DNA of 35,085 bases from an uncultured Arenicella sp. GTDB lineage: Bacteria; Pseudomonadota; Gammaproteobacteria; Arenicellales; Arenicellaceae. Location of the stretch: contig CAJQNY010000162.1 in assembly GCA_905479805.1 (NCBI GenBank), forward strand, positions 1 to 35,085, read 5' to 3'. Shown piece by piece: positions 2,519 through 30,338 of the stretch. The notes beneath the pieces are model-generated. The model was not told the origin of the DNA. It saw only the letters and a list, made by a program, of their open reading frames with translations, and did no database searches. Positions within the stretch are counted from its first letter, which is position 1. The number at the start of each line of letters is the position of its first letter. The position numbers and the translations under genes are program-made.

Positions 2519-3604
2519 TTATACAGCCTTATAAGACTCACTCATTGCCGCTGAAATCGAGCGAGTGCCTTCAACATTCAACCGACCATGCCCACACCGT
2601 ATATTATCAATTAACAGGAGGTCACCCTCTTGCCATTTAAACAGTGTTGCCGAACGCCAAGCCGCATCGATTATTTGCTGCGTTTCGTCCTTACTTATCT
2701 CTGTACCATCTCCCCATAGAGTTCGCATAAAGACGCGTTCCTTGGTGTAATGGTATTTTACCAACCGACTCAAAGCAAAACGTTGAAAGAGCTTATAACG
2801 CTTTCTAAAATGAACCATATCGTAAGGAGCGGCATGACTATTATACAAAGTCATATTCAAACATTTATCACCCGTGGTTGGGTGGGTCATTACGCCAGGC
2901 GTTTTTGATCGCGTCAACAAACCACCATCCTTTTGCCACTCAAAAGTCATTCGTTGTATGGCACACGCTTTTGCCACTTCTTCGCGACTACTGGCATTGA
3001 AGGCATCCATCCATGTTTTATAAACATTATCTCGGACCTTCTTCGCACCAAAATAGCGCTGATACATCATTCCTAAACGTTCTATCTTAGTTTGTAATTC
3101 TTCGGACAAGCCAGAGAAGGCAGCTGCACAATCGAACACCGGAGTTTCACCATACCGCTGCGGCGCTTGTTGGCAATAAAAGAACACTTTTTCTGGTCTT
3201 TGACGCAAATAACACATTTCAGTATGAAATGAGATTATCAGCGGGTCCGGAGCTTCCGTTGAAGTGAAAAAATTCTCACTGATTTTGGATCGCGGGCTAG
3301 CGCCAGCGAGATACTCATTATCGAACTTAATATCCAGTTCTTTCAGAAGTTCCTCAGCCATCCGCGTATTCTCCAAAGGAAAATCACGCAGTAACAACAC
3401 TCCCTGCTGTGCCAGGTGTCCCAATATTTGATTCTTGTTGTCTGCAAAGGAAACCTTAATTAACTCGAAATTGCTTTCAGCTTGCAGTTCCTTTGCGGGT
3501 TCCATAGCCGCCAAAAAATGATCATTGGCGCTATCCAATGATAATTCGTCGCTTCCTAAAAGACGTATATTAAATTCAGCTGACTTCACGGGTTTGGGTG
3601 ACAC
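2519..3604 (-). CDS. TauD/TfdA-type Fe(II)/2-oxoglutarate oxygenase (SyrP-like)
   Basis: The 361-residue protein has the TauD/TfdA double-stranded beta-helix iron site. An HxE motif lies at His127-Thr-Glu129 (FHTEMCY), the distal His339 is in CGHGRLNVEGTR, and Arg348 is placed to bind 2-oxoglutarate. The HxE (rather than HxD) motif and the GETPVFD and LLLIDNIRCGHG segments place it with the SyrP/AmbC-like group, several members of which hydroxylate amino acids or carrier-bound amino acids. No NRPS gene is nearby. It is the first gene of a minus-strand pair with the deiodinase-like flavoprotein 27 nt downstream, which suggests both act on one substrate, perhaps an aromatic amino acid. The promoter should lie in 3605-3859. 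The reaction is not predictable from sequence alone. Confidence 0.85.
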   Translation of the reverse strand: MSPKPVKSAEFNIRLLGSDELSLDSANDHFLAAMEPAKELQAESNFELIKVSFADNKNQILGHLAQQGVLLLRDFPLENTRMAEELLKELDIKFDNEYLAGASPRSKISENFFTSTEAPDPLIISFHTEMCYLRQRPEKVFFYCQQAPQRYGETPVFDCAAAFSGLSEELQTKIERLGMMYQRYFGAKKVRDNVYKTWMDAFNASSREEVAKACAIQRMTFEWQKDGGLLTRSKTPGVMTHPTTGDKCLNMTLYNSHAAPYDMVHFRKRYKLFQRFALSRLVKYHYTKERVFMRTLWGDGTEISKDETQQIIDAAWRSATLFKWQEGDLLLIDNIRCGHGRLNVEGTRSISAAMSESYKAV

Positions 3605-3859
3605 TTCTCAATAGCAAAAGTGTGGAGAATTTGGATTAATGGATTGAGTCAAAGGTATTAGACGATTGACGGGAAAGACTACAAGTAAAGGTTCATTCCA
3701 TCAAGCTTTTCTTGGCAATGATTCAACTAAAAATGCTCTTTAATAGGTTTCACAAATACGCTGATGCAATTCAACATTGCGCGAAGATTAATTTGCTTAT
3801 TGCCACACTCCCATGATTTACTCTATGCCCCGAAAACGAATAATTTGACGAGTGATATC
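3605..3859. other. Divergent intergenic region between oxygenase and VOC genes
   Basis: About 255 bp separate the minus-strand oxygenase start from the VOC ATG at 3860. The plus-strand frame from 3764 runs into the VOC frame, but its N-terminal extension does not resemble a VOC domain and I treat it as non-coding. Promoters for both directions are expected here. I did not find a convincing -35/-10 pair or operator. Confidence 0.4.
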
Positions 3860-4231
3860 ATGATTGGATACGTAACAATTGGTGTAGCAGACATGGCCAA
3901 GGCATCTGCTTTTTATGGCCCATTATTAGCTGAAGTGGGTGCTGGTGAATTAATTAGCATGGACAGGATAAAGTTCTATGGCACAGGCCCAGATCAAGCC
4001 ATGCTTGCGATCTGCACACCCTTTGATGAAGAATCAGCAAACTGTGGCAATGGCAATATGGTCGCGATACCCGGCGGAGACCGAGCTGGTGTTGACCGCC
4101 TTTACAAAAAGGCCATTGAACTAGGCGCAACCGATGATGGCGAACCAGGCGAGCGCATGCCAGTTTTTTACGGTGCTTATGTTCGTGATCTTGATGGGAA
4201 TAAGCTTTGCTTTTACGAAATGAAAATGTAA
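3860..4231 (+). CDS. VOC (glyoxalase/bleomycin-resistance) family protein
   Basis: The 123-residue protein starts MIGYVTIGVADMAKASAFYGPLLAEVGA, the usual beginning of a single-domain vicinal-oxygen-chelate protein. It ends in the typical YVRDLDGNKLCFYEM strand with a Glu in the position of the C-terminal metal ligand. The first strand has Thr6 instead of the His often seen as first ligand, so metal binding and catalysis are uncertain. I chose the ATG at 3860 because VOC homology begins exactly there. The in-frame extension back to 3764 has no family resemblance. The gene is divergent from the oxygenase/deiodinase unit and lies about 100 bp upstream of the AspH-like gene. The substrate cannot be predicted. 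Confidence 0.8.
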   Translation: MIGYVTIGVADMAKASAFYGPLLAEVGAGELISMDRIKFYGTGPDQAMLAICTPFDEESANCGNGNMVAIPGGDRAGVDRLYKKAIELGATDDGEPGERMPVFYGAYVRDLDGNKLCFYEMKM

Positions 4232-5310: not shown

Positions 5311-7200
5311 ATGACCAGATTAAAATTACTGCAATTAGCATTCTTAAGTATCACCCTCATGCTTACCGCCTGCGACAAGCCCGCTACAACCGCTGACACA
5401 GCCACCGATACCGCTAAGGAAGTCGAAACCGCTGCACCTGTAGCGGCCATGTCAGAAGACGACAAAGCAAACAAGCTTTTCGAACAAGTATTTGAAACCG
5501 CTATTTCACGTAGCCCCGAGTTCCAGACCTTTCTCGGCCGTGGCACAAACATGGATAAATGGGATGATCTAAGTGATCAATTCCAACAGGAGTCGTTACA
5601 GATTAGCAAAGACCAGTTATCTCAATTGCTCGCTATTGACCAGACTCAGCTATCGGATTCGTCCAAGCTTTCTTACGACTTGCTAAAGCAATCTCTCGAA
5701 AACGATATTGCTGATTTCAAATGGCGTTTATACAACTACCCTGTAAATCAAATGTTCGGCACGCACAGCAGCGTACCGAGCACTCTGATTAATCAACACC
5801 GTATTGGCTCAGTGAGCGATGCAGAAGCCTACATTAGTCGCTTAAACAACGTCCCAAAATACTTTAGCCAGTTAATAGACGGGCTGAAGGCTCGTGCCGA
5901 AGCAGGTATAATTCCGCCAAAATTTGTGTTCCCACACATTATTCGTGATAGCAAAAACATCATTACGGGAGCGCCATTCGATGGTGGTGATGCCAACACG
6001 TTGTTGGCGGATTTTTCCGGAAAACTAGATAAACTATCCGAAAAAGAAGGGTCTGATCTCAGTGAAGAGAAAAAGGCATCACTACTTGCAGACGCTAATA
6101 GCGCCCTTTTGAGTTCATTCAAACCTGCTTACGAAGGCCTAGTTGCCTATCTGGAACAGCTTGAGGCAACCGCCACGACGGATGATGGGATATGGAAGTG
6201 GAAAGATGGCGCAGAATTCTATGATGTCGCTTTAGCTCGCACCACAACAACGGAACTGAGTTCGGAAGAAATTCATCAAATCGGCCTTGATGAAGTCGCT
6301 AGGATTCACGACGAAATGCGCAAAATCAAAGAAGCCGTAGGCTTTGAGGGCGATCTATCGGCATTTATGACGTTCATGAAAGACGATAAGCAATTTTATT
6401 ACGACAGCACCGAAGAAGGAAAAGCTAGGTACTTAAGCGAAGCATCCGCTCTGATCGACACAATGAAATCCAACTTGGATAAGATGTTTATCATCAAACC
6501 AAAAGCCGATATTAAAGTGCGGGCAGTGGAAGCATTCAGAGAGCAATCTGCGGGTAAAGCTTTCTACCAACGACCTTCTGAAGACGGCAGTCGACCGGGC
6601 CTTTATTACGCTAACTTGTACGATATGGAGGCGATGCCTACATATCAAATGGAAGCGTTGGCTTATCACGAAGGCATTCCAGGACATCACATGCAGATTG
6701 CCATTTCTCAAGAGCTAGAAGGGATCCCTAACTTTCGGAAATTTGGTGGTTATACGGCATACATCGAAGGCTGGGGCTTGTACTCAGAGGCTCTGCCGAA
6801 AGACTTTGGCTTTTATAGTGACCCCTATTCCGATTTTGGACGCTTAGCAATGGAGTTGTGGCGTGCGTGCCGCTTAGTCGTTGATACTGGCATTCACTCA
6901 AAGAAGTGGACTCGAGAGCAAGGCATCGAGTACTACACCAACAATACCCCTAATGCGGTTTCAGACGGCGTAAAAATGGTTGAACGTCATATCGTAATGC
7001 CCTCTCAAGCTACCGCCTACAAAATAGGTATGCTGAAGATAATCAAACTTAGAGAAGATGCTAAGCAAGCAATGGGCGATAAGTTTGACATTCGGGGGTT
7101 TCATGACGAAGTGTTAAAGTACGGCCCATTGCCACTCAATGTGTTGGAAAGCAAGGTGAACGCTTGGGTGAAAAACACTCTTGAAGACACCTCTGAATAG
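5311..7200 (+). CDS. DUF885 family lipoprotein, putative zinc peptidase
   Basis: The 629-residue protein starts at ATG 5311. A TTG at 5287 in the same frame would overlap the previous gene and precede the signal peptide awkwardly. The N-terminus is a lipoprotein signal with lipobox LTAC and Cys21, followed by a Thr/Ala-rich linker, which points to a membrane-anchored envelope protein. The DUF885 core carries HEGIPGHH (His453-Glu454, His459, His460) and a downstream EGWGLYSE with Glu486. These resemble a gluzincin-type zinc site with the third ligand from the EGW helix. The family is thought to be peptidase-like, with substrates largely unknown. It is co-transcribed with the AspH-like gene and ends at a strong terminator. 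A paralogue lies at 20694-22595. Confidence 0.85.
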   Translation: MTRLKLLQLAFLSITLMLTACDKPATTADTATDTAKEVETAAPVAAMSEDDKANKLFEQVFETAISRSPEFQTFLGRGTNMDKWDDLSDQFQQESLQISKDQLSQLLAIDQTQLSDSSKLSYDLLKQSLENDIADFKWRLYNYPVNQMFGTHSSVPSTLINQHRIGSVSDAEAYISRLNNVPKYFSQLIDGLKARAEAGIIPPKFVFPHIIRDSKNIITGAPFDGGDANTLLADFSGKLDKLSEKEGSDLSEEKKASLLADANSALLSSFKPAYEGLVAYLEQLEATATTDDGIWKWKDGAEFYDVALARTTTTELSSEEIHQIGLDEVARIHDEMRKIKEAVGFEGDLSAFMTFMKDDKQFYYDSTEEGKARYLSEASALIDTMKSNLDKMFIIKPKADIKVRAVEAFREQSAGKAFYQRPSEDGSRPGLYYANLYDMEAMPTYQMEALAYHEGIPGHHMQIAISQELEGIPNFRKFGGYTAYIEGWGLYSEALPKDFGFYSDPYSDFGRLAMELWRACRLVVDTGIHSKKWTREQGIEYYTNNTPNAVSDGVKMVERHIVMPSQATAYKIGMLKIIKLREDAKQAMGDKFDIRGFHDEVLKYGPLPLNVLESKVNAWVKNTLEDTSE

Positions 7201-8437: not shown

Positions 8438-8830
8438 TTAGCGAATGATCTCAAAGCCTAGATTTAGTTGAATCAACGTTACCAGATACAATAAGGCGGA
8501 GAGCACGAGGCCCGCCAAGGTAACGTATCTAATGTTAAATAGCGCATCTCCAATATTGTTAATCAAAGGGGAAAAACTCGCGTATTTGTCGGCCATTATT
8601 TGTACTGCAGCGATCATCAAGAAAGCACCGGAAACAATAGCCGCCTGCCCCCAAAACGTATCTGTATTTCGCAAGCCATACCAAAACACATTCCAAACAC
8701 CAACCAATAGGACAAACACAGCGACCACACTTCGTTGCCGATTGAGCAACGATGGCTCAATGAGCGAACGCCGTTCTCCCCAAACGCAAAACACACTTAC
8801 CATGAGTGCGACACATACGACTATTCCCAT
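8438..8830 (-). CDS. Small four-helix membrane protein, unknown function
   Basis: The 130-residue product has four predicted membrane segments: about 2-17, 33-50, 60-80 and 98-120. No catalytic or binding motif is apparent. The ATG is preceded by GAGG at about 9 nt, and it begins 26 nt after the MATE stop on the same strand. It is therefore probably the last gene of the 10813-8438 unit. It converges on the HEAT gene with only 28 nt between stops and no obvious terminator hairpin. I do not recognise a family. Confidence 0.7.
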   Translation of the reverse strand: MGIVVCVALMVSVFCVWGERRSLIEPSLLNRQRSVVAVFVLLVGVWNVFWYGLRNTDTFWGQAAIVSGAFLMIAAVQIMADKYASFSPLINNIGDALFNIRYVTLAGLVLSALLYLVTLIQLNLGFEIIR

Positions 8831-28425: not shown

Positions 28426-28905
28426 ATGAACATATTTCGCTTTTCTGGATTACTTACCGCCCTCGTATTATCAAGCAGCGTGCTTGCCGACGACCTCTTA
28501 GATAGGCTAGAAACAGCAACAGAAATCATGGGCGAGAAACAAGGTACGTTCTACCTAAGTCGAGTACCGGAACTGACTGGAAAAATGCCAGACTGGACAT
28601 GGGATGAAGAGATCCGCACTGCGTCAGCTTGTGTTCTTACAGGTATCGAAAATGCCAAAGGAAGAAAAGTAGCAGAAGCATACGTAGCCGCGTTAGAGAA
28701 AGATGCGAAACAACCCATCACTTCAATCGGTCAATTAAGTGATCAAAGCTCGCTCCCGAAAGAACTGACAGGCAATGACCGAACCATAATAAGTTTAATG
28801 GAATCCTGCAGGACAATGGAAATTTCTACCTCGCGCTTGAAGGAATCAGGATTCTGGGATGCAATGCAAGATCCCAATGTAATCCAAAGGCTGGTGGCTG
28901 AGTAA
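28426..28905 (+). CDS. Small exported protein of unknown function
   Basis: The 159-residue product has a Sec signal peptide (MNIFRFSGLLTALVLSSSVLA, cleavage near 21). The polar mature part has two Cys residues (around 68 and 128: SACVLTGIEN and MESCRTMEI) that could form a disulfide in the periplasm. I recognise no family. The ATG at 28426 is divergent from the GGT gene with 163 bp between starts. The following 106 bp to the TauD stop show no clear terminator. Confidence 0.65.
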   Translation: MNIFRFSGLLTALVLSSSVLADDLLDRLETATEIMGEKQGTFYLSRVPELTGKMPDWTWDEEIRTASACVLTGIENAKGRKVAEAYVAALEKDAKQPITSIGQLSDQSSLPKELTGNDRTIISLMESCRTMEISTSRLKESGFWDAMQDPNVIQRLVAE

Positions 28906-29011: not shown

Positions 29012-29860
29012 TTAGCTCACTCGTTCCCCAATAGTAGTTCGGTGCAAATACCGTGCATGGCCTTCGTAACCACCGGTTGCTTTATGCAACACGGATCGGT
29101 TGTCCCACATGACTAGGTTGTTTGCCTGCCATTTATGCCGATATACAAATTGGTCTTGAGCTTGCCATTCTTGTAGCTCCATCAAGAGCGGTAGTGCTTT
29201 CTCTTGTGACATACCTTCAAAGCCAATGATATATCCTGCGGTTCCGTAGACTGTCAGTTCACCCGTTTCAGGGTGTGGCCTTAACAATGGGTGAATTTGA
29301 GTGGCGTTAGCATCGTCCGATGGCCGGATGTCCATGCTACGAGACTGATCATCCTCTTCACCATAGGCCCCCTCTTTTGCATAAGCGAGTGTGGCAGAAT
29401 GAATCGCATTAAGACCTGAAAAGCGCGCTCGCATTTCCTCCGGCATTTCCGAGCATGCTTTGTGTTGATCGGCAAATAGCGTATCGCCGCCTGTCGGGGG
29501 AATGGTGATTCCATATAAGCAAGTACCCGCTGGAGGAACGGCTTGGAAGCTCCAATCGGTGTGCCAAGCTTCTGCGAAAATCGGGGCGGTTTCATCTGCC
29601 CCGCGTTGCACCGCAATAATATTATTACGCCCTTCGATAGGAGCGATGAATGGGTCTTCGCCAAACGGGCCGAATGATAGTGTGAATTGCTCGAGGGCAT
29701 CATCTGAAATGTCTTGATCAGGAAAACTTAACACATGATGTGTGAGCCAAGCGGCACGCACCTCAGCTATTTCTTGCCCAGTCAATGGTTCACTTAAGTC
29801 AAGACCTGTGACGACTGCGCCACACGCCTGACCGCTGGGTTCTATATGTAATGTAGAAAT
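29012..29860 (-). CDS. TauD-type Fe(II)/2-oxoglutarate dioxygenase, apparent ATT start
   Basis: This 282-residue TauD-family protein begins at ATT (29858-29860), if my reading is right. No ATG, GTG, TTG or CTG occurs in frame between the upstream stop and TTG 29785. The 25 codons in between encode a typical TauD N-terminus (STLHIEPSGQACGAVVTGLD), and AGGAG lies 7 nt before ATT. Numbered from ATT, the iron ligands are His100, Asp102 (WHTDWSF) and His259 (SVLHKATGG), with Arg274 for 2OG. These nearly equal E. coli TauD His99, Asp101, His255 and Arg270. Family members cleave taurine or other sulfonates or hydroxylate small acids, and no sulfonate transporter is adjacent. A membrane protein gene lies 46 nt upstream on the same strand. 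Confidence 0.87.
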   Translation of the reverse strand: MSTLHIEPSGQACGAVVTGLDLSEPLTGQEIAEVRAAWLTHHVLSFPDQDISDDALEQFTLSFGPFGEDPFIAPIEGRNNIIAVQRGADETAPIFAEAWHTDWSFQAVPPAGTCLYGITIPPTGGDTLFADQHKACSEMPEEMRARFSGLNAIHSATLAYAKEGAYGEEDDQSRSMDIRPSDDANATQIHPLLRPHPETGELTVYGTAGYIIGFEGMSQEKALPLLMELQEWQAQDQFVYRHKWQANNLVMWDNRSVLHKATGGYEGHARYLHRTTIGERVS

Positions 29861-29867
29861 ATTGTTG

Positions 29868-29872
29868 CTCCT
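29868..29872 (-). promoter_or_regulatory. Ribosome binding site deciding the ATT start
   Basis: The minus strand reads AGGAG here, exactly 7 nt before the ATT codon at 29858-29860. It is the only good Shine-Dalgarno sequence near the 5' end of the TauD-type gene. Confidence 0.7.
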
Positions 29873-29906
29873 GTTTTTTTGCTATTTACCCTTTATTAGT
29901 CAAGCG

Positions 29907-30338
29907 TTAGCTCAACCAACCTTTCTTGGTACAGGACTTTGAATACCAGATACAAAACACTTCAATGATGACAATTAGCGCTGGAAACATCAGCACTTCA
30001 CTTCCACCAATATCTTGTACCTTAGCAATCCCAAACGAATAAAGTTGCTGAACTAATACTGCGGCCAAGGAAAGGATAAACACATTAGTGGCGAGGCTGC
30101 GGCGCATCAACAACAATACACTAGCCGCTAAACCTGCAAATACGGCAACGGCGAATGCGCCGAGTGCCCAAGCCGGGCGGGATTCATACATTGACTGCAT
30201 AGCAGAGCCTAGTTTGGCTAGGTCTTCAGGTGTTTGATTGATGTCTGCGAAAAACGCCATGACTCCCATGGCATTCCATATCAAAACGAGCACGCCAATA
30301 ATCCAAAATGAGATGGGTAACTTAGTATCTGTTGCCAT
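29907..30338 (-). CDS. Four-helix membrane protein, unknown function
   Basis: The 143-residue product has four hydrophobic segments: about 9-31, 55-78, 83-105 and 113-133. It starts MATDTKLPISFWIIGVLVLIWNAMGVMAFF. Similar small proteins occur in marine bacteria, sometimes labelled sugar transporter without support. I see no transporter motif. It is 46 nt upstream of the TauD-type gene and 110 nt downstream of the acylase gene, all on the minus strand, so co-transcription with TauD is possible. Confidence 0.7.
   Translation of the reverse strand: MATDTKLPISFWIIGVLVLIWNAMGVMAFFADINQTPEDLAKLGSAMQSMYESRPAWALGAFAVAVFAGLAASVLLLMRRSLATNVFILSLAAVLVQQLYSFGIAKVQDIGGSEVLMFPALIVIIEVFCIWYSKSCTKKGWLS

Follow-up and report, generated by a model that had tools for sequence, protein, structure and literature searches.

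A probable AUU start codon in a TauD/TfdA-family dioxygenase gene of an uncultured Arenicella sp.

The window analyzed here, that is, the whole stretch of 35,085 nucleotides, carries on its minus strand a gene of the TauD/TfdA family of Fe(II)/2-oxoglutarate dioxygenases (Table 1). The reading frame of this TauD-type gene opens after the TAG stop codon (29884-29882) with CAA AAA AAC AGG AGC AAC AAT ATT TCT ACA and runs uninterrupted to its end at 29012. Between that stop and TTG 29785 the frame contains no ATG, GTG, TTG or CTG. The TTG, which is codon 26 when ATT is counted as codon 1, is the first ATG, GTG or TTG of the frame, and no ATG occurs in any minus-strand frame from 29930 to 29736. 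The AGGAG motif (29872-29868) is separated from ATT (29860-29858) by the 7-nt spacer CAACAAT. The first-pass annotation had described 25 TauD-like codons upstream of TTG 29785 that lack ATG, GTG, TTG and CTG, together with an AGGAG 7 nt before the ATT, and both description and coordinates are correct. It had also foreseen truncation of the protein by automatic annotation, and mechanical ORF calling indeed returns 29012..29785, a TTG start and a product of 257 aa. Gene callers restricted to ATG, GTG and TTG would cut 25 conserved residues off the TauD-type protein.

Table 1. Coordinates of the dioxygenase gene and of the elements around its proposed start (positions of the window)
Feature	Position	Strand	Basis and remarks
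TauD/TfdA-family Fe(II)/2-oxoglutarate dioxygenase gene	29012..29860	-	282 aa from ATT; Pfam PF02668, PDB homologues, 81 relatives
ATT, proposed start codon	29858..29860	-	Reading frame, Shine-Dalgarno; same alignment place as the ATG of L107
AGGAG, Shine-Dalgarno	29868..29872	-	7 nt before ATT; duplex -6.6 kcal/mol
TAG, in-frame stop upstream	29882..29884	-	Sequence
TTG, first canonical in-frame start, codon 26	29783..29785	-	Truncated 257-aa protein; poor Shine-Dalgarno, -2.3 kcal/mol

The surroundings of the gene are partly kept. A gene of the penicillin-amidase family (PF01804; 30449-32599, minus strand) lies two genes upstream in the window, and in the related locus L031 the TauD orthologue is immediately followed by an amidase gene (2811-3956) that is 72% identical. 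The pairing of amidase and TauD-type gene, though its order has changed, may hint at the substrate of the dioxygenase. Between the two genes of the window sits a 143-aa probable membrane protein (29907-30338, minus strand), for which no Pfam or NCBIfam match was found and no counterpart appeared in the loci of the relatives. On the other side, an ORF of 159 aa whose N-terminus resembles a signal peptide (28426-28905, plus strand) runs on the strand opposite to both its neighbors and has no Pfam match.

Read from ATT, the protein matches the Pfam profile PF02668 over practically the whole domain (E 1e-59, 203 bits vs a cut-off of 27, profile positions 2-267 of 267, residues 6-276). Alignments with the best solved homologues in the PDB begin at query residue 4-5, and residues 5-273 of E. 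coli TauD (1gqw) align to query residues 4-277 with an N-terminal offset of one residue. The HTD motif falls at residues 100-102, with H100 and D102 followed by H259 and R270, all of them aligned with the PDB chains. We take the HxD...H residues of TauD-type dioxygenases to be iron ligands and the arginine to bind 2-oxoglutarate; the corresponding residues of E. coli TauD are presumably H99, D101, H255 and R266. The earlier proposal that numbering from ATT places ligands and arginine within 1-4 positions of E. coli TauD agrees with these numbers. By profile and motifs the predicted protein is thus a member of TauD/TfdA, and it resembles E. coli TauD (1gqw) and aryloxyalkanoate dioxygenase (6d1o/5bk9) in its full-length sequence match, its HTD and its distal histidine and arginine. 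It is not a taurine dioxygenase proper, since its score with the NCBIfam equivalog NF007104 is far below the cut-off (167 vs 313 bits).

Conservation of the protein was evaluated against 81 relatives (E<=1e-60), comprising the best 80 of 209 confirmed genome_contigs loci and L004. Mean identity to these 81 relatives was nearly the same over residues 3-25 (0.64) and residues 26-282 (0.66), and G14, A15, G19, D21 and L22 were conserved in 93-99% of them. Judging from this alignment, the 25 codons upstream of TTG 29785 are protein-coding. The remainder of the gene is equally well preserved. Beyond the start there is no stop or frameshift, and in a set of equal size (81 relatives plus the window, 82 sequences) the window protein deviated at none of 105 positions that were at least 95% conserved and at 4 of 128 positions that were at least 90% conserved (median 3, range 0-15 over the 82 sequences). 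Its root-to-tip distance was 0.37, compared with a mean of 0.49 (sd 0.09), and is not long. The alignment gives no sign of decay of the TauD-type protein, although a very recent loss of the start would leave none.

Start codons of the relatives were assigned by rule and not taken from annotation, the start being whichever canonical codon in the interval from -7 to 7 lies closest to query position 2. Under this rule the 81 relatives (best 80 of 209 plus L004) start with ATG in 75 cases, GTG in five and TTG in one, and none of the 81 needs a near-cognate start. L002 and L003, whose contigs are already represented by L031 and L057, and the distant matches L005-L030 (about 30-38% identity) stand outside this count. 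The best genome_contigs match is 71% identical. A DNA match to the gene was present in four of 18 genomes of the same genus, the window's own included, and a search of the order at E<=1e-70 recovered 4 of 109 genomes, the same four; the three same-genus orthologues all start with ATG. In this set of best matches the start lies one codon downstream of the ATT place in 60 of 81 relatives, where the window has TCT, a codon three changes away from ATG, while an ATG exactly at the alignment place of ATT is found in one of the 81 (L107). The first-pass annotation had held that an ATG at this place in relatives would count against an ATT start. Loosely taken this is what we see, exactly in L107 and one codon further on in the 60, but all of these sequences belong to other species at no more than 71% identity and thus cannot decide which base the source strain carries.

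As far as the sequences compared can tell, the ATT is private to the source assembly and absent from the relatives. This argues against a conserved device controlled by IF3 and is compatible with a change specific to the lineage, with an allele of the strain or with an error in the consensus. The suggested link of the ATT to IF3-sensitive control found no support, given that none of the 81 relatives needs a near-cognate start and that the three same-genus orthologues use ATG; the conservation of the codon among relatives that would be expected of IF3-controlled near-cognate starts (infC, sigR) is not seen here. In the titles and abstract openings returned for ATT/AUU starts and for Arenicella with taurine dioxygenase, nothing referred to this gene.

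The strength of the Shine-Dalgarno interaction separates the candidate starts. The anti-Shine-Dalgarno duplex at ATT (-6.6 kcal/mol) is equalled or bettered by only 9% of 864 first canonical starts of the same genome, whereas the values are -2.3 kcal/mol at TTG 29785 and +2.6 kcal/mol at an in-frame ATA (29845). A start at the TTG would combine a poor Shine-Dalgarno with the removal of conserved residues, and a start at the ATA would have no Shine-Dalgarno at all; both were rejected. The TTA at codon 4, one base from TTG, occupies the place at which 12 of the 81 relatives (best 80 of 209 plus L004) start, but it lies 16 nt from the Shine-Dalgarno and was judged from the sequence to be too far. 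An indel instead of a substitution was likewise discarded: because no minus-strand frame holds an ATG in the interval noted above, a simple small shift near the start would supply no nearby ATG. The predicted fold of the leader RNA was no better than that of shuffled sequences (z -0.37) and showed a weak pairing of AGGAG with UUUCU just 3' of the ATT. Shine-Dalgarno spacing and the single-base path from ATG make ATT the best-supported candidate; counting against it are this weak pairing of AGGAG and the fact that one relative of 81 (L107) starts at the corresponding place in the alignment. Conserved coding sequence that no canonical start precedes, together with a properly spaced Shine-Dalgarno, gives the gene the sequence features of the near-cognate (AUU) start class. 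As the putative start of the full-length protein, ATT is well supported by the lack of a canonical start, the conservation of the N-terminus, the position of the Shine-Dalgarno and the lack of decay.

How unusual such an arrangement is was evaluated in a sample of the source genome made up of 122 stretches and the window, which together hold 1,125,420 bases (15,818 N) of 2,877,519, or 39%. We selected 864 ORFs with a minimum length of 100 codons, scored the open stretch preceding the first canonical start of each for coding potential, ranked the ORFs by this score and checked the 25 best for near-cognate codons. Any gene in which a canonical start follows within a few codons would escape the scan. 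The infC gene, with a Shine-Dalgarno-backed ATA start, ranked 1st (score 25.3) and is the built-in positive control of the scan, and the TauD-type gene with its Shine-Dalgarno-backed ATT ranked 6th (score 8.5). Both held ranks 1 and 6 in a smaller run of 83 stretches and 566 ORFs. Among the 25 best, only these two genes joined a long coding-like upstream stretch to a Shine-Dalgarno-backed near-cognate codon at its edge. Near-cognate codons directly before an ATG (window 8438-8830 and L216) were not counted as cases, nor was a Shine-Dalgarno-backed CTG lying outside the coding-like stretch of L203. The conservation of the 25 upstream codons and the rarity of this anatomy in the scan of 864 ORFs indicate that the observation in the TauD-type gene is more than chance. 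The infC of the source genome (L201, G000:C165, near 5700-6214) lacks any canonical start ahead of codon 47, and the duplex at its ATA is -6.9 kcal/mol; by eye, infC of relatives in the order starts with ATA or ATC in those loci where the motif was found. With infC as control, the scan could be applied to many genomes to estimate the frequency of near-cognate starts.

The best explanation of these patterns would be that the gene encodes an intact dioxygenase of the TauD type, some 282 residues long, whose translation begins at AUU 29860-29858 and is positioned there by a good Shine-Dalgarno. The AUU would be decoded as methionine by the initiator tRNA, with ribosomes of this organism presumably initiating at this codon, and the ATT most likely arose in this lineage by a single change from an ancestral ATG, which we infer. 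Initiation at AUU would be inefficient, so that the amounts of enzyme produced are probably small, and some added sensitivity to IF3 would come from the AUU codon alone. That the organism starts its TauD-type gene in this manner, with a lineage-specific ATT, weak initiation and a full-length enzyme, is in our judgment probable, and the ATT is a true feature of the sequence and very probably the true place of the start. The main rival takes the T for a mistake of consensus or assembly, or for the allele of a minority strain, with ATG at the same place in the gene of the organism. The ATT is one base from ATG and is seen in the source assembly only, all 81 relatives (best 80 of 209 plus L004) have ATG, GTG or TTG and none has ATT, and the assembly, in 280 contigs and with 78% completeness, is both fragmented and incomplete, which leaves room for an error or a minority strain at one base. 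However, the remaining gene contains neither a stop nor a frameshift and does not deviate at the 105 conserved positions, the 25 best of 864 ORFs hold no second anatomy of this kind besides infC, and by rough reasoning errors in the consensus at a rate of 1e-5 per base would produce fewer than 0.1 such start codons per genome. We regard this rival as unlikely, though it is the one to be taken most seriously.

Less likely again is the loss of the start by mutation, which would leave a very young pseudogene or only a truncated and probably inactive product from TTG 29785. The frame offers no canonical start until codon 26, and ATT performed very poorly in an rsbW-eGFP reporter of Listeria (PMC13068326). 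Against such a loss, no other sign of decay accompanies the ATT (a very recent loss would leave no trace), and the TTG has a poor Shine-Dalgarno (-2.3 kcal/mol) and drops conserved residues. There is, finally, the idea that ATT has been kept by selection as a regulatory device, providing either IF3-dependent or low constitutive expression. Precedents exist in the ATT of infC in E. coli and the GTC of sigR under IF3 control (PMC5472188), and infC of the source genome itself has a Shine-Dalgarno-backed ATA. Nevertheless, a near-cognate start is needed in none of the 81 relatives (best 80 of 209 plus L004), the three same-genus orthologues included, the leader has no special RNA structure (z -0.37), and the dioxygenase has no obvious functional tie to translation, so that we hold selection for such a device to be very improbable. 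Its more specific form, an AUU throttle fixed in one lineage through which synthesis of a catabolic dioxygenase would track the level of IF3 in the manner of infC, is likewise very improbable. If read support exists for the favored AUU start, the TauD-type gene would be a further case, besides infC and pcnB, of a gene that naturally starts with AUU, here in an Arenicella-related lineage.

Starting at AUU is odd but has precedents in other bacteria, and published work supports both that such initiation can occur and that it is weak. The pcnB gene of E. coli reportedly starts with AUU, and in our gene, as in E. coli infC and pcnB, no start other than AUU would be plausible for the conserved full-length protein. 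Unlike the ATT of E. coli infC, which serves IF3 autocontrol (PMC5472188), the ATT of the TauD-type gene is private to one assembly. Another parallel is cvfC1 of S. aureus, a non-infC gene with a Shine-Dalgarno-directed AUU; PMC13009471 describes detection of the AUU start by Ribo-Ret and conservation among staphylococci of the codon and of a very strong extended Shine-Dalgarno. In contrast to that conserved and mapped codon, the ATT described here occurs in one assembly and is known from sequence alone. GTG and other non-ATG starts are described for sugar regulators in PMC11445065. In Listeria monocytogenes, rsbW-eGFP expression followed the order ATG > ATA > ATT, with ATT giving no fluorescence and a reduced product on Western blots (PMC13068326). 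While the ATT and ATA of those rsbW mutants were selected and measured in the laboratory and ours is deduced from sequence, the TauD-type gene would share with them a private change from ATG to ATT that leaves the frame intact and probably lowers translation.
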